A stretch of 64,000 bases of DNA from Rhabdophis nuchalis. Lineage: Eukaryota; Chordata; Lepidosauria; Squamata; Natricidae. Location: positions 49,741,110-49,805,109 of the forward strand of contig CM077647.1 in assembly GCA_039707465.1 (NCBI GenBank), read 5' to 3'. Of the stretch, positions 4,132 through 46,502 are shown in pieces. The notes beneath the pieces were generated by a model. It was not told the DNA's origin. It made no database searches and was given only the letters and a program-made list of their open reading frames with translations. The position numbers were made by a program, and so were the translations under genes. Positions within the stretch are counted from its first letter, which is position 1. Every line of letters starts with the position of its first letter.

Positions 4132-4172
4132 TGTATGTATGTATGTATGTATGTATGTATGTATGTATGTAT
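4101..4172. repeat. (GTAT)n microsatellite
   Basis: Pure tetranucleotide repeat of about 72 bp. It is the insertion target of the adjacent hAT element, and the repeat resumes for two units at 4585-4592. Confidence 0.97.
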
Positions 4173-4348
4173 CAGTGGTGGGTTTCAAATTTTTTAGAAC
4201 CTACTCTGTAGGTGTAACCTATTTTGTGGGCGTGGCTTGGCAGTCATGTGACAGGGTGGGAGTGGCCACCTTTTAAAATGTGGTGAAACTCATTTAACAA
4301 CGTTCTTGCTTAGCAACCAAAATTTTGGACTCAATTGTGATGATAAAT

Positions 4349-4410
<62 letters not shown>

Positions 4411-4584
4411 TTTCTTTCTTTCCTTTCTTCCTTCCTTTCCTTTCCTTTCCTTCCCGTTGCGTCACTGGCAGCGGCGGGCCAGATTTACTTCCAGGTACGC
4501 CAGTGGAACCCCCTCTCACCGGTTCTCTAAATTTCACCAACCGGCTCTCACGAGTAGGTGCGAGCCTGCAGAAACCCACCACTG
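4173..4584. mobile_element. hAT-type non-autonomous element inserted in a microsatellite
   Basis: Terminal inverted repeats cagtggtgggtttc and gaaacccaccactg are perfect over 14 bp. The flanks gtatgtat (4165-4172 and 4585-4592) are an 8-bp duplication, although inside a GTAT repeat this is only consistent, not proof. The interior carries a piece of the cttaacaac MITE family (about 4286-4350) and a (CTTT)n tract. No transposase is encoded. Confidence 0.85.
4350..4455. repeat. (CTTT)n microsatellite
   Basis: Tetranucleotide pyrimidine tract decaying to cctttcctttcc on the right. It produces serine/phenylalanine/leucine-rich chance reading frames on + and lysine/glutamate-rich ones on -, which are not genes. 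Confidence 0.97.
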
Positions 4585-4592
4585 GTATGTAT

Positions 4593-4710
4593 GTAGTATA
4601 TATATAGTATATAATATTATATATTATATATATATGTAGTATATAATATTGTAGTATATAATATTATATATGTAGTATATAATATTATATATTATATATA
4701 TATAATATTC
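4593..4710. repeat. (AT)-rich low-complexity tract
   Basis: Interrupted tatata/atattatat repeat directly left of hammerhead copy A. Comparable AT tracts flank or interrupt the ribozyme copies at 31.9-32.85 kb. Confidence 0.9.
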
Positions 4711-4940
4711 AAAATAGATCTATCCTAGTCTCCCTTGTTTATTTATTTATCAGCTCAAAACTTAACACACATGGAAACAAAAGACAACAAAACTCATAGC
4801 TTTCTGTCTGGATGGTCTCTGGTGATCAGCGGAAAGACAGAAAAGGAAAGCAGCTTGCTTCCTCCCTTAATTGGGGCTTACCAGGGTGTTGGTAAGTATA
4901 TACACAAGTATATACTTATTCCCCTGTCTCAGCTGATCAG

Positions 4941-5015
4941 GATAAGAACCAGTGGTCTGCTGGCAATTACAACTGCCTCACATGTAAAACTTCCCTGGTT
5001 CAAATCCCAGTAAGG
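4941..5015 (+). promoter_or_regulatory. Possible tRNA-like Pol III promoter of copy A
   Basis: GGTTCAAATCC at 4997-5007 fits the B-box consensus. A weak A-box-like tggtctgctgg lies at 4953-4963, a spacing of about 34 bp. The segment resembles a tRNA-derived SINE head. It precedes the ribozyme by about 20 bp. Promoter activity is inference. Confidence 0.45.
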
Positions 5016-5067
5016 GTATAGCTAGCTGATGAGCGCTAAATAGCTGGAAATAGATCTATCCTAGTCT
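5016..5067 (+). ncRNA. Hammerhead ribozyme motif, type I-like
   Basis: The core has CTGATGA (5026-5032) and GAAA (5047-5050). Stem I pairs gctag (5021-5025) with ctagt (5061-5065), the last pair being G-U. Stem III is ATA/TAT with loop GATC, and the cleavage-site triplet ATC gives a predicted cut after 5060. Stem II (5033-5046) keeps only GCU/AGC because its two outer pairs, next to the core, are mismatched. All core bases visible to me match the consensus, but weak stem II makes activity uncertain. Hammerheads are known in Penelope elements and retrozymes. Confidence 0.72.
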
Positions 5068-5159
5068 CCCTTGTTTATTTATTTATCACCTCAGGTTTTG
5101 AACTGATAAATATATAAACAAGGGAGACTAGGATAGATCTATTTCGAGATCTAAAGTTC

Positions 5160-11165: not shown

Positions 11166-12038
11166 CGAGGGTGATTCAATAAATAAGGTGAATTTTTCTG
11201 TATAAGGACTTTTAATACAGATAGAAGCTTACTTTTTTATTTTTTTGTGTTTTACTACTTTTTCACATGGATTTAATTTCTTATGCAGATTACAAAAAAA
11301 CCTTGAGAGTTTTACCGATTAACAAAGATGGCCGACCAAGAAGCATGCTCCAGGATTGAACAGCGGTCAGTTATCAAGTTTTTGGTTGCTGAAGGGTGCA
11401 AACCCATTGAAATTCATAGGAGAATGTCAACTGTGTATGGTGCCACATGTTTCAGCTAAAAAAATGTCTACAAGTGGGCTACATTGTTTAAAGAAGGACG
11501 GAGCAGTGTTGAGGATGAAGGCAGGCCTGGGGGGCCTACAGAAGTGAGGTCTCCTGAGGTGATCGAATCAGTCTGACAGAAGGGTGACAGTGGATGACAT
11601 TGCAAGAACTTTGAGCTTATCTGTTGGGACAGCACACAAAATTGTCCATGATGACCTTGGCTACTCGAAGGTCAGCTGCAGGTGGGTCACAGCAGCCCAA
11701 ACGGTGCAGACCATCAAGGAGCTGGGCTGGGAACTGCTCCCTCATCCCCCTTATACCCCAGACCTTGCCCCTTCAGACTTTCACCTGTTTGGTCCCTTGA
11801 AAGCGTTCACGAGAGGCACAAAGTTTGAAAGTGACGATGAAGTCAAAAGTGTTGTGAGCGACTGGCTGAGACATCAGTCTAAAGATTTTTACGCTGAGGA
11901 AATACGGAAGCTTGTGCACAGATGGGAAAAGTGTGTGACAGTCCTGGGAGACTACGTTGGGGGAAAAAAAAGTAAGCTTCTATCTGTATTAAAAGTCCTT
12001 ATACAGAAAAATTCACCTTATTTATTGAATCACCCTTG
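11166..12038 (+). mobile_element. Mariner element with internal deletion
   Basis: It is bounded by TA dinucleotides (11164-11165 and 12039-12040). It has unusually long inverted repeats of about 65 bp, from cgagggtgattcaataaata to its mirror, and they extend to a taagctt site. The interior encodes degraded mariner transposase. At 873 bp it is shorter than a typical autonomous mariner of about 1.3 kb. It sits nested in the hAT element at 11044-12260. Confidence 0.93.
11330..11960 (+). pseudogene. Mariner transposase pseudogene
   Basis: The N-terminal helix-turn-helix region is readable from about 11330 (..SRIEQRSVIKFLVAEG) but is interrupted by stops before the in-frame stretch starting at 11584 (VTVDDIARTLSLSVGTAH). 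The sequence then jumps from CRWV to TIKELGWELLPHPPYTPDLA, so the middle with the first two catalytic aspartates is deleted. The C-terminal HPPYTPDLAPSDFHLFGPLK motif, which holds the third aspartate of a DD34D-type catalytic site, is kept. The product could not be an active transposase. Similar non-autonomous copies depend on an intact relative. Confidence 0.9.
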
Positions 12039-12268
12039 TACAAACCTTTATTTCTGCTTCTGAAGCCCAGCTGATCAGGGGTAGCAGATTGAATTGCTGT
12101 TCCTCAGCTGTTTTTCATGCTCCTTTCCTTGTTTTCAATGCAAAAGTTCAATTTCTCTTAACTGCGCATCCACGCGCATGAGTGCAGAGAGAGAGGGAGT
12201 GAGAAAGAGAGAAGCTGCATTCAACGAACCAGTAGTGAAGCCAGTAGGATACCACCCCAGTATGCAGA

Positions 12269-24699: not shown

Positions 24700-26552
24700 G
24701 TGCATAGCAAACAAGTGAAAGATCTGTTAACTGCCGTGAACAACATTTTAACTTCCATCTCATCCAGCACACTATATGAAAACAACCAATTAATGTATAG
24801 CACAGCCGCTGTTATAACTGCAGAACTAGGTTATAAAATGCCAAAAAAGAAACCCACTGGAACACCAAAGTGGAAAATTCGACTTGAAAATAAAATTAAA
24901 AAACTACAAAGGGATATCAGCAATCTGAAGTACTTGAAAGAACGAAAACTAAAGAACAAAAAGCTGAAAAATAGTTTACACAAAAAATACAACCTGGAGG
25001 AAAAAACAATAACAGAAATTATGGAAGAACTAAAACAACGTGCGATAGCAACAGCAAGGAAAATTGAAAGATATGAAGGACGAATAAAACAATATCGTGA
25101 AAATGTCCAGAAGAAACCAACACCTCTTCTACCGGTCCCTTCATGAAAATCGAATCCAAACTAATATTCACCCATGTAAAGAAAAAACTTTGAATTTTTG
25201 GAAAGAACTGTGGGAAAACCCAGTAGAACACAACAACACTGCCTCCTGGATCAAAGATATTCAACAACAAACAATACAAAACAAGATGGAAAATATTGCA
25301 ATAAAAACTGATATGGTGACAAAACAAGCAAAGAAGGTCAAGAACTGGAGTGCACCTGGCCTGGATGAACTACGTGGATACTGGCTAAAACATCTGACCA
25401 GCCCACATCATCGCATGGCCACTCAATTTGATCAAATGCTTCAAAATGCAACAAGCAAAGAATGGCTAACAGCTGAACAAACTTACTTGATAATGAAAGA
25501 TCCAGAAAAAGGCAAAGAACCAAATAACTATCACCCAATTACTTGTCTGCCAACAATGTTCAAACTTTTTACAAGGATATTGGCAAATTCAATATTCAAT
25601 CACCTGATAGAAAACAGAACAAAAAAGAAATTATAAAAAATCAAGAGGAACAAAAGATCAGCTGCTCATAGACAAAATGGCACTAACAAATGCAAAACGA
25701 AGGAAAACAAATTTAAATATGGCTTGGATTGATTACAAGAAGGCATTTGACTCATTACCCCAAAGCTGGATTAACACTTGTCTGGAAAACTTTGGAATTT
25801 GCAAAAATATCTGTAAATTTTTGAAAGCAAATATGCAAAAATGGAAAACAGTTCTAACAACAAATGGGGAAAACATTGGTGAAGTCAACATCAGACGACG
25901 AATCTTCCAAGGAGATTCACTTTCACATTGCATTAGTTCATTGCACTGTTCAACATTGCATTAGTTCCCCTGACAATAACCCTACAGAACACAAAACTGG
26001 GATACCAAATCTCAAGACAACATGGCAAGATAAACCATCTACTATACATGGATGACTTAAAAATGTATGCAAAAAGCCCCACTGAACTTAAATCAATACT
26101 CAACACAGTTCAACTGTTCAGCAGTGACATCAAAATGAACTTTGGACTTGAAAAATGTGCTATATTATCCATGCAGTGAGGAAAAATGGAAAGAACAGAA
26201 GAAATAGAACTGGAAAATGGAAATATAGTGAAAGCAATACCAAAGGATGATGGTTACAAGTACCTAGGCATATTGGAAGCAGATAAGATCTTTAATGGAA
26301 AAATCAAAGAGTACTGGCCGCTCAAGAACAAGCACTACAAACTAATGCCATGAAAGCGAAGATTCAAAAATCCACTGACAACCCAAACTGCCGACCTTGC
26401 AATAACAAAGTCGAAACTGTTTCACATTTAATATGTGAATGCAGCAAAATCGCATAGCAAACAAGTGAAAGATCTTTTAACTGCCATGAACAACATTTTA
26501 ATTTCCATCTCATCCAGCACACTATATGAAACCAACCAATTAATGTATAGCT
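24700..26552 (+). pseudogene. R2/R4-clade LINE reverse-transcriptase pseudogene
   Basis: The frame starting at 24700 reads HSKQVKDLLTAVNNI then a lysine-rich KWKIRLENKIKKLQRDISNL region. It shifts frame near 25130 and continues through ENPVEHNNTASWIKDIQ, NWSAPGLDELRGYWLKHLTS and NNYHPITCLPTMFKLFTRIL. It shifts again near 25635 into [19 protein letters not shown] (RT motif A) and [10 protein letters not shown]. The YMDD box is intact at about 26048 and is followed by DLKMYAKSPTELKSIL. A C-terminal cysteine/histidine cluster (CRPCNNKVETVSHLICEC) lies near 26392-26445. Several frameshifts and a stop make it inactive. A 100-bp block from its 5' part recurs at 26452-26552. Confidence 0.78.
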
Positions 26553-31941: not shown

Positions 31942-31945
<4 letters not shown>

Positions 31946-31971
31946 TTATGAGCTGATCAATAAATTAAATT

Positions 31972-32030
31972 AGAAGAGACTAGGATAGATCTATTTCGAG
32001 CTTATTAGCTCTCATCAGAAATAGATCTAT
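31972..32030 (-). ncRNA. Hammerhead ribozyme core, minus strand, unit 1
   Basis: Read on the minus strand: CTGATGA (32018 down to 32012), stem II GAGCT/AGCTC closed by loop AATA, GAAA (31997-31994), stem III ATA/TAT with loop GATC, and cleavage-site ATC ending at 31984. Core and stem II are perfect. Stem I can pair 11 of 12 positions between agaagagaccag and ctagtctcttct, but 13 extra bases (GATAGATCTATTT) separate the 5' strand from the core, so folding as a normal three-way junction is doubtful. Confidence 0.72.
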
Positions 32031-32169
32031 CCTGGTCTCTTCTAATTTAATTTCTTGATCAGCTCATAAAACTAACACACATATCTAAAATATTATACAA
32101 CGTAATTCTTGGCTTGCTGTTTGGATGGTCTCTAGCGATGAGCCGATGGGCAGTAAGGGAAATTAAATT

Positions 32170-32228
32170 AGAAGAGACCAGGATAGATCTATTTCGAGCT
32201 TATTAGCTCTCATCAGAAATAGATCTAT
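32170..32228 (-). ncRNA. Hammerhead ribozyme core, minus strand, unit 2
   Basis: Same as unit 1 shifted by 198 bp: CTGATGAG complement at 32209-32216, GAAA complement at 32192-32195. The base that differs between units (c32179) lies in stem I and restores the pairing partner that is mismatched in unit 1. Confidence 0.72.
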
Positions 32229-32414
32229 CCTGGTCTCTTCTAATTTAATTTCTTGATCAGCTCATAAAACTAACACACATATCTAAAATATTATACAACG
32301 TAATTCTTGGCTTGCTGTTTGGATGGTCTCTAGCGATGAGCCGATGGGCAGTAAGGGAAACAGTATGTCTCCTCCCTTTAATTGGGGCCTAATAATAACA
32401 GGTTGTTGTGAAAC

Positions 32415-32521
<107 letters not shown>

Positions 32522-32522
32522 G

Positions 32523-32847
<325 letters not shown>

Positions 32848-37451: not shown

Positions 37452-38281
37452 TTTATTTTTAAAAAATCATTTTATTAATGGGTGCTTTTATTAAAAGTAG
37501 AAAATCAGGAAAGCTGTTCTAATAACAGGTGTTAAATATAATTTTCCCACAACACATTCAATGACTTTTAAAAGTCCTCATAGTGTTTACAAGTAGGATG
37601 TTAAACTCAATTACTTGTTATTAAGTAATTAAGAAGCAAGCACATTCAATGCAGCACAATCATTTAATTCAGAAACCTATATAGATCTCCAAGTAGGTGT
37701 ATTACTGCAAAATCTTCCCAAGCAATTACACAACTAATCAATGCTATAACAATTGCAAATTTAATAAAGGTTTACATTTAAAAGCAATTATTAAACTTCA
37801 GTCTTTTAGCAGCACCAATATACACAATCACTAAGACAACTTGAAATTAACGATTTACAGCATTTTGTAAAGCATTCTTTTTGAAACTTCTGTCAGAGGA
37901 CATGTAAATAACACCCAGATGCTGTGCTATTTAAGATACTAGAAACTAAAAGACCAAGTTTCAAAAGAACAAAGTTGTTTAAACACAAAAATATACTTAG
38001 TGCTTTTACATAGCTACTAAAGAAGTGCCACTTTCCCATAAGAGTTCCTTTCAGCATTTCCATCCTATTTTGTTGAAAGCAGCTGGCAGTGACGTGTCCA
38101 CCTGAGTTTCAGGAGCTCTGTGTTAACTCCTTGGCTGCTGCAGCCCCTGAAGAGAAAGTTCTGTAGTGCACTGACTTCTATTATAATCAGAGTCAAAGTG
38201 TCACAGAACTTTCTTTCCAGAAGCCAAAACTTTTTCTACTAAAGGAGCTTCATCAGCTGCAAGGCATCCATTTCTTGTCCA
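37452..38281 (-). other. Candidate terminal exon and 3' UTR of a minus-strand gene
   Basis: Read on the minus strand, a strong acceptor (tttatttctgttgtag) precedes 38281. The first bases stay open in two frames. Frame 0 gives WTRNGCLAADEAPLVEKVL then ASGKKVL and a stop. Another gives GQEMDALQLMKLL and a stop. About 800 bp of repeat-free sequence follows, with AATAAA signals at 37476-37471 and 37457-37452. I cannot identify a product. Confidence 0.4.
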
Positions 38282-44524: not shown

Positions 44525-46502
44525 CTCTTAAGTTTAAGTTTATTGGATTTGTATCCCGCCCTATCTCCCCGAAGGGACTCAGGGCGGCGCACAGGTAAAT
44601 ACAAAAATACAATATAACTACAATAAAAATATATTACATTTTAACCCTAGCTAAAAACATCTTTAAAACCCATCTAAAAACCCTTACTAAAATCCCTACA
44701 ATTTGTTATTAAAATCTAAGCCAGGCCAACCAGATGAAAAAAGTGAGTTTTAAGCTCCCGGCGGAAGAGACGCAGGTCCATGATGGTACGAATGTTGGGG
44801 GGTAGGTCGTTCCAGAGAGCCGGACCCGCCACAGAGGCAGCCCTTCCCCTGGGGGTCACCAGCCGGCATTGGCCGGCAGACGGCACCCTGAGTAGGCCCT
44901 CCCTATACAAGCAGACAGAACGGAGGGAGGTATGTGGTAGGAGGCGGTCTCGCAAATACCCAAGTCCCGTGCCATGGAGCGCTTTAAAGATGGTTATCAG
45001 TACCTTGAAGCGCACCTGGAAGGCCACAGGCAGCCAGTGCAGCTCGCGCAGGAGAGGTGTTATATGGGAGTATTGAGAAACTCCCAGAATCCCCCACGCG
45101 GCCGCATTCTGCACTAGCTGGAGCCTCCGGGTGCACCTCAAGGGAAGCCCCATGTAGAGAGCATTGCAGTAGTCTAGGGGGAATGTCATGAGGGCTTGAG
45201 TGTGCAAAGGGAGTCCCGATCTAGAAAGGGGCACAACTGGTGTATCAAGCGAACCTGATAAAAAGCCCCCCTGGCCACGGCCATCACATGGTCATCCAAG
45301 GACAGCCGCGAGTTCAGGAGGACACCCAAGTTGCAAGCCCTTTCCGTGGGGGCTAATGACTCACCCCCGATAGCCAACGATGGAACCAGCTGGCTATATC
45401 GGGACACCGGAAACCACAGCCACTTGGTCTTGGACGGGTTGATCCTCCCCATCCAGACCCACATGGCCTCCAAACACTGGGACATCACATCAACGGCATC
45501 GTTGGGGTGGTTAGGGGTATAGATGTACAGCTGGGTGTCATCAGCCTACTGATGGTACTCTACCCCAAAACCACGGATGATCTCGCCCAGTGGCTTCATA
45601 TAGGTGTTGAACAGGAGAGGCGAGAGAACCAACCCCTGAGGCACTCCACAAATGAGGGGCCTCGGTGCCGATCTCTGCCCGCCTTGCCAACACAAGTTGC
45701 GACCGACCGGAGAGATAGGAGGAGAACCACCGCAAAACGGTGCCTCCCACTCCTAACCCCTCCAGTCGGTGCAACAGGATACCATGGTCGATGGTATCGA
45801 AAGCCACTGAGAGGTCTAATAGGACTAGGATAGAGGAATGACCTCTATCCCGAGCCCGCCAGAGATCATCAACCAACGCGACCAATGCCGTCTCCATGCT
45901 GTGTCCAGGTCGAAAGCTGGACTGGTGCGGATCTACATAGACAGTTTCCTCCAGGTGCCGGGGAAACTGATATGCCGCCACACTCTCAACAACCTTCGCA
46001 AGGAAGGGAAGGTTGGAGACCGGACGATAATTAATCAACATTGCTGGGTCCAGGGAAGGTTTCTTGAGGAGGGGTCTCACCATCGCCTCTTTCAAGGCGG
46101 CTGGCAAGAACCCCTTACTCAAGGAAGCGTTCACTATTTCCTGGAGCCAGCCTCGTGTAACCTACCAGGAGGCCAGTACCAGCCAGGAGGGACACGGGTT
46201 CAATAAACATGTGGTGGCATTCAAGCGCCCCAGCAACCTGTCCATGTCATCTGGAGTCACAGGGTCGAACTCTTCCCATAAAACAGTCTCAAGACCTGCC
46301 TCCGTCGCCCCCCCCCCCCCAGACTAACTTCACTGGAGACCAACTCGTCCCGGATCTGAGCGATGGTCTTGGATTGGACCATATTTGTGTAAATTTACTG
46401 TGCCTGTAGAGTTCAAAGTTTTCAAAGGAACCCCAGATAGTAGAAGTGTGTCCTGCTGGAGAAAAACAAGAAAGAATCCAATTAACTACAGATTAAAAAC
46501 TT
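44525..46502 (-). pseudogene. CR1/L2-type LINE, reverse-transcriptase pseudogene
   Basis: Minus-strand frames in order: an SKTIAQIRDELVS segment near 46370, [33 protein letters not shown], and [20 protein letters not shown] (motif A with the first catalytic aspartate). A frameshift follows near 45655. The catalytic YADD box is changed to stop-ADD near 45555. Then come LYIYTPNHPNDAVDVMSQCL, LDYCNALYMGLPLRCTRRLQ and a C-terminal LHWLPVAFQVRFKVLITIFK...ALWNDLPPNIRTI. The 3' UTR ends at about 44525 with gggcgggatacaaatccaat. It is 5'-truncated and inactive, but relatively GC-rich and young-looking compared with other copies here. Confidence 0.85.

Follow-up and report, generated by a model that had tools for sequence, protein, structure and literature searches.

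A dispersed family of probable non-LTR retrozymes with a hammerhead ribozyme in a squamate genome

We find that the repeat at positions 4711–5147 of the 64,000-nucleotide stretch analysed here, which we call the window, consists of one 336-nt unit followed by part of a second and is a member of a family dispersed through the genome. This family very probably represents non-LTR retrozymes, of which the window copy is one decayed member and for which the reverse transcriptase of a Penelope-like element is the likely motor. Its members show several marks of metazoan non-LTR retrozymes, namely a type I hammerhead ribozyme with helices I–III, in-phase tandem units that fall in the range of about 150–450 bp of such elements, a non-coding body, many copies and a GC content below 50%. 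The original prediction had read the window repeat as retrozyme-like, and that reading is supported by related genomic copies, by matches to the Rfam hammerhead model RF00163 above its cut-off and by tandem copies.

The window copy and a second locus in the window

The features of the window copy are as follows.

4712–4757 (+): arm 1, the 3′ part of a ribozyme and the start of unit 1; direct repeat, 98% identical to arm 2
4725–5060 (+): complete cut-to-cut unit of 336 nt, subfamily 1; matches the whole unit profile (1–328), being itself among the 28 units from which that profile was built
4800–4843 (+): internal hairpin common to the copies at 31942–32727; suggested by fold and covariation
4997–5007 (+): B box GGTTCAAATCC, the internal promoter box of Pol III type 2 promoters; by motif
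5010–5076 (+): type I hammerhead, stem II decayed in this copy; RF00163 18.3 bits, below cut-off
5048–5093 (+): arm 2, the start of the incomplete second unit; direct repeat
5060/5061 (+): predicted self-cleavage site, after the unpaired C that follows stem III
5099–5147 (−): inverted arm at a fold-back junction; inverted repeats

Our measurements bear out the earlier description of this copy and strengthen it at one point. The two direct arms said to lie 336 bp apart around the predicted cut are identical at 45 of 46 positions at exactly that spacing, and a third arm follows in inverted orientation. The ribozyme elements that had been named can all be placed, with CTGATGA at 5026–5032, GAAA at 5047–5050, a stem III of the form ATA-GATC-TAT and a weak stem II in which only two of four pairs form. 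Stem I is stronger than had been claimed, since the fold gives it an inner helix (GCUAG/CUAGU) and an outer one (UAAGGG/CCCUUG) separated by a small internal loop. The B box, placed about 20 bp upstream in the original prediction, lies 18 nt ahead of the core. No open reading frame of at least 100 amino acids overlaps 4711–5147.

The hammerhead of the window copy is decayed, its stem II being broken at two pairs, and it scores 18.3 bits against RF00163 (Hammerhead_1), for which the Rfam cut-off is 34; a whole-window Rfam scan at the cut-offs lists no hammerhead, its sole entry being mir-148. A structural descriptor scan of the window returned the hammerhead site of this copy as its only match, and 300 dinucleotide shuffles searched at the same minimum gave 53 matches, 20 of them with an outer stem of at least five pairs. 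Taken alone, the motif is moderately significant and suggestive, not proof; we hold the hammerhead to be real because of homology, that is, because genomic relatives carry better, covarying ribozymes. In the body of the unit, the hairpin at 4800–4843 is paired in 27 of 27 cells across three distinct copies, with two of nine pairs changed on both sides, a level of covariation equalled by 54 of 500 shuffles, and both this covariation and the wider consensus fold of the three copies are suggestive. The circular fold of the window unit (z of −2.5 against shuffles) was not used as evidence. Rfam microRNA matches over the arms fall below their own cut-offs, and we took them as reflecting the fold-back hairpins. 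Just upstream of the window copy, at 4170–4587, is a segment with 17-nt inverted ends (94%), which is perhaps a small hAT-type element.

When compared with the window, the element showed relatives at 31942–32727, a locus that the original prediction did not mention.

31946–31996 (−): inverted arm; window comparison
31984–32018 (−): intact hammerhead core without the usual stem I; window comparison
32019–32159 (+): partial unit, young subfamily 2; window comparison and profile match
32182–32216 (−): duplicate hammerhead core in the 198-bp tandem duplication; window comparison
32217–32405 (+): partial unit of subfamily 2, running into (TA)n; genomic matches
32559–32709 (+): diverged third partial unit; nhmmer E 7.7e-36, with a profile that contained this copy

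This locus thus holds three partial units on the forward strand, with two perfect hammerhead cores on the reverse strand that lie between inverted arms and within a 198-bp tandem duplication spanning 31962–32357. Both cores have an inverted arm where the 5′ half of stem I would otherwise be, so that neither should form the usual stem I. The diverged unit at 32559–32709 is also matched by both unit profiles, neither of which includes it. Between the two window loci, the higher arm identity of the ribozyme half gave a Fisher p of 0.052 and was not used as evidence.

A genomic family with tandem units, a conserved ribozyme and preferred ends

Copies with the same arm and core, whose absence was to count against the original prediction, are present elsewhere in the assembly (1.92 Gb in 348 contigs), where a search with the window copy gave 181 matches from the best 40 of 4227 first-look candidates. 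After the window's own match, the best of these are 87–92% identical over most of the query, and some are tandem. With 32217–32405 as the query, the best 40 of 1433 first-look candidates, the window's own row included, are 99–100% identical over 188–189 of 189 nt and lie on many contigs; subfamily 2 therefore looks recently active. The figures 4227 and 1433 count first-look candidates that are mostly unscored and give no family total, and the best-scoring copies indicate that a young subset exists rather than the age of the whole family. Scans of viral and prokaryotic contigs gave no match to the arm, and scans of viral contigs none to the core pattern; the body motif had one and four short matches in viral and prokaryotic contigs, extending over at most 33 nt at 85%, which we took as chance.

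We analysed 46 loci, 45 with family matches and one (L034) without; they are best-scoring matches rather than a random sample, and the counts omit L043, L053, L054 and L006–L013 as duplicates of other loci or of the window. The tandem copies that had been expected about every 336 bp were found at spacings of about 330 bp: of 42 distances between neighbouring cut sites on the same strand, two of which merely join the two window loci, 28 fall at 300–345 nt, and 23 of those 28 at 327–333 nt. At subfamily-2 loci, 14 of 18 distances are 343–347 nt, and the units so delimited average 98.2% identity; the four distances outside 330–360 nt were dropped here, as were units outside 320–342 nt from the subfamily-1 unit set. 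Family units measure about 328–347 nt, with subfamily 2 at 343–347 nt, and their GC content is 0.41 (14 units) and 0.407 (28 units). The longest arrays in the loci examined hold about three and a half units (L057, L061).

Covariance scores, expected to stand above background, do so genome-wide: with 73 of 227,684 candidates scored, nine places exceed the RF00163 cut-off, eight of them in the family, and none does so in 14 control genomes. The ninth, at L034 1501–1543 (38.1 bits), shows no similarity to the family and is perhaps a separate hammerhead.

Gapless matches to the 35-nt core with at most nine substitutions, taken from the 46 loci and the window, gave 128 ribozymes, 91 of them distinct. 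Across thirteen pairs of helices I–III, 92.7% of cells in these 91 are paired, and 41 cells show double changes, compared with a shuffle mean of 8.2 and a level reached by none of 500 shuffles; when the partner strand is slid, pairing falls to 25–45% and double-change cells to 11–15. The number of pairs with any double change, eight, shows no excess over the slid versions (six to nine). Core and tested pairs are complete in 39 of the 91, by a criterion that covers neither the outer stem nor pair five of the inner stem I, which is usually G-U. An alignment of 30 family ribozymes picked for diversity (29 distinct, the window copy being one of the rows), which covers 18 pairs including the outer stem, is 95.4% paired, with changes on both sides in nine pairs spread over all four helices and 32 double-change cells as against 8.7 in shuffles, none of 500 reaching that count. 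Shared ancestry and the picking of rows inflate these covariation counts, but the subfamilies hold separate compensatory states, for instance in stem I (GGCUAG/CUAGUC and GGCCAG/CUGGUC), and helix III is a 10-nt palindrome.

Free 3′ ends are concentrated in two regions of the unit, with 42 of 73 in subfamily 1 falling in bins 46–60 and 166–210 and 32 of 49 in subfamily 2 falling in bins 46–60 and 181–210; 14 (8 and 6) lie at the unit end. For these counts 44 of 179 subfamily-1 segments, and none of 92 in subfamily 2, were dropped as overlapping a better one. Free 5′ ends are more spread, yet 23 of 73 in subfamily 1 lie at unit positions 1–15. A microsatellite follows 46 of 77 3′ ends in the preferred regions (here 44–60, and 166–210 or 181–215), the other 31 having none. 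Elsewhere the frequency is lower: inner 3′ ends outside these regions have one in 7 of 31 cases and free 5′ ends in 11 of 101, and the background is 0 of 5000 positions in control DNA and 146 of 20000 in the window, from small controls of 40 kb and 64 kb. Most microsatellites at the first preferred region are (AC)n, seen at 11 of 27 ends and at 8 of 14, and this site resembles its own (AC)n target; at the second the microsatellites are mixed, (TA)n being the commonest in subfamily 2 (5 of 19 ends). Copies that end in simple repeats show only short AT matches and no clear target-site duplication.

These results bear on the possibility that the family is an ordinary satellite or tandem repeat that spreads by unequal exchange at the DNA level and carries the ribozyme as a passenger. 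Units in phase would be expected of such a repeat, and the 198-bp duplication at 31962–32357 ignores unit borders; however, the arrays are short and scattered over many contigs with parts that are 99% identical, their 3′ ends are preferred ones, and covariation maintains the ribozyme, all of which make a satellite improbable.

Promoter boxes and neighbouring Penelope-like DNA

In the genomic loci, 69 ribozymes have a complete 5′ side; a perfect B box precedes 38 of them, and one with no more than a single mismatch precedes 54. Of the complete units, 12 of 14 and 21 of 28 carry the box in perfect form. TTTT is nearly absent from complete units (0 of 14 and 2 of 28). In subfamily 2, a candidate A box matches 11 of 12 positions in all 14 units and lies 57–58 nt ahead of the B box, a level equalled by 95 of 2000 shuffles. 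In subfamily 1, the best candidate matches 10 of 12 positions in 20 of 28 units, 11 in six and nine in two, with a spacing of 44 nt in 18 of 28. The A box is thus unproven, seeming unconvincing in subfamily 1 and borderline in subfamily 2, and Pol III transcription of the family is possible. An ordinary tRNA gene was ruled out, ARAGORN finding no tRNA in the window; on 26 loci it made one odd tRNA-like call, which overlaps the L048 B box. The frequent B box also led us to consider a possible origin of the family from the Squam3 SINE (excerpts of PMC10702118, PMC7983390).

Fragments resembling Penelope-like elements adjoin several family copies. Three probes, cut from L047, L049 and L055, match 13 of 46 loci, those three by construction, and the matched pieces lie within 15 nt of a family segment in six; the same probes match none of 10 random 4-kb loci and nothing in the 64-kb window. 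Minimal hammerheads reading CTGATGA-stem II-GAAACGTTGC occur in the recurring flanks of 10 of the 46 loci. At L055 and L063, the DNA that starts 1 nt beyond a family copy runs into a frame of the RT/GIY-YIG type, which at L063:460–1056 carries a GVY...YIG motif. Pfam assigned this frame to no convincing family; a search for relatives found 21, several with RT or GIY-YIG domains (PF00078, PF26215, PF01541), and those assigned to named reptiles belong to Ahaetulla, Crotalus and Phrynocephalus. The remaining two probe types owe the label Penelope-like not to a frame but to their hammerhead form and to 71–75% similarity with pieces of the L055 type or of one another.

At L045 and L055 the family copy and the Penelope-like piece are directly joined. 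We read such junctions as template switching or as shared insertion by one machinery; a simpler alternative is that a shared preference for simple-repeat or AT-rich targets may explain the association. The retrozyme family is perhaps moved by Penelope-like machinery. A snake-lineage label for the family is plausible, kinship to squamate proteins being the only pointer to it. At L049 1736–1960, end pieces of the Penelope-like type fold back on each other almost perfectly and contain two minimal hammerheads, one on each strand.

We also weighed a tRNA-derived SINE mobilised by a LINE, in which the hammerhead fold would be incidental. The frequent B box fits such an element, as do 3′ ends at simple repeats, which occur in many SINEs. 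It is nevertheless very unlikely: the tandem units keep phase with the cut site, the 3′ ends cluster at two preferred places, the ribozyme helices show compensatory changes, subfamily 1 has no clear A box, and Penelope-like pieces occur at loci of the family. The 94% complementarity of the arms at 4709–4761 and 5095–5147 would fit a MITE-like DNA transposon bounded by 53-bp terminal inverted repeats, but this reading is hardly credible and was rejected: at 31942–32727 the inverted arms point the opposite way and flank the ribozyme core, direct tandem units and inversions of varied form occur at other loci, and no clear target-site duplication is present.

Proposed cycle and relation to known elements

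For the non-LTR retrozyme that we favour, we infer from sequence a cycle of cleavage, circularisation and copying by a Penelope-like enzyme, with possible use of Pol III. Transcription of tandem units would use either an external promoter or Pol III acting at the B box, the hammerhead would cut the RNA to unit length, and a host ligase would close the unit RNA into a circle. A reverse transcriptase, most likely that of a Penelope-like element, would then copy the retrozyme RNA, starting at one of the two preferred internal regions and often on simple repeats; by running round the circle or along a multimer, it could give rise to copies longer than one unit, to varied 5′ ends and to fold-back inversions. 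More tentatively, and with rather less than an even chance, the family may be a still active amniote retrozyme–SINE hybrid that combines a tRNA-derived Pol III promoter, hammerhead-made circles, copying by a Penelope-like enzyme from the two internal regions on simple repeats, and occasional switching of that enzyme from retrozyme to Penelope-like RNA or back; if true, this would tell which machinery moves animal retrozymes.

Several known systems resemble the family. The SMalpha elements have Pol III boxes; they differ in host, being found in Schistosoma and not in a squamate. As described in an excerpt of the source, from which the likeness is drawn, these SINE-like elements share with the family a type I hammerhead, a non-coding body and a similar length, an element similar to SMalpha measuring 335 bp (PMC8490949). 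Among metazoan non-LTR retrozymes, those of the axolotl, with units of 331 and 353 nt (excerpt of PMC7229834, by Cervera and de la Pena, 2020), come closest to the family by description, both having a type I hammerhead with a short palindromic helix III, tandem units of about 330–350 nt, GC below 50% and many copies. Compared with the axolotl elements of that excerpt (PMC7229834), the squamate family has an amniote host, a frequent B box and two microsatellite-linked 3′ ends. Amphibian retrozymes have a weak palindromic helix III and cut better as dimers, the likeness to the squamate family lying in the palindrome (PMC7229834, same excerpt). Newt satellite 2 likewise has tandem units of about 330 bp and a hammerhead whose helix III is weak and whose cutting improves in dimers (excerpts of PMC7229834 and PMC6155905), whereas the squamate arrays are short and dispersed with retroelement-like ends.

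Penelope-like elements themselves, as represented by PAc/Poseidon of Anolis, resemble the family: both have a hammerhead and copies in full or partial tandem, and both go with AT-rich targets, two internal start sites of reverse transcription (putative ones in the family) and an AC-rich start region (PMC11167929). AT-rich DNA is the preferred target of the Anolis protein, whose reverse transcription begins at two internal sites within a stem loop rich in AC; this start is not homologous to the target (PMC11167929), unlike the first 3′ site here. The family is not itself a Penelope-like element, because its unit is non-coding: an RT plus GIY-YIG frame is absent from within the unit and is seen only in neighbouring DNA (L063:460–1056). 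The ribozymes differ too, those of the Penelope-like pieces at the examined loci reading CTGATGA-stem II-GAAACGTTGC, whereas that of the retrozyme family has a stem III.

In excerpts of four papers (PMC7229834, PMC7761336, PMC6155905, PMC3088659), retroelement hammerheads are reported from invertebrates, coelacanth and amphibians, and isolated intronic hammerheads from amniotes, including reptiles; the vertebrate retrozymes of PMC7229834 are amphibian. Our search of the open-licence literature found no reptile or snake retrozyme, and an earlier notice elsewhere is possible; the element's own sequence, looked for in paper texts, gave no match. As the machinery that moves animal retrozymes, Penelope-like elements have been put forward as no more than a strong candidate (excerpt of PMC7229834). 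The squamate family, with its near-identical copies and adjoining Penelope-like pieces, offers a direct test system for retrozyme mobility, since a Penelope-like protein from Anolis shows activity in vitro (PMC11167929). The family is also a hint that living amniotes may contain small circular RNAs made by ribozymes.

The window holds other features apart from the family. A mir-148/mir-152 precursor lies at 38147–38219 (−), scoring 73.9 bits against a cut-off of 53. A frame at 11584–12063 (+), to which Pfam gave no match, resembles a remnant of a mariner-type transposase. The frame at 25097–25636 (+), likewise with no Pfam match, has weak similarity (best E 0.058) to R2 retrotransposon proteins whose structures have been solved, and a reverse transcriptase fragment is present at 45541–46134 (−), matching PF00078 with an E-value of 2.3e-11.
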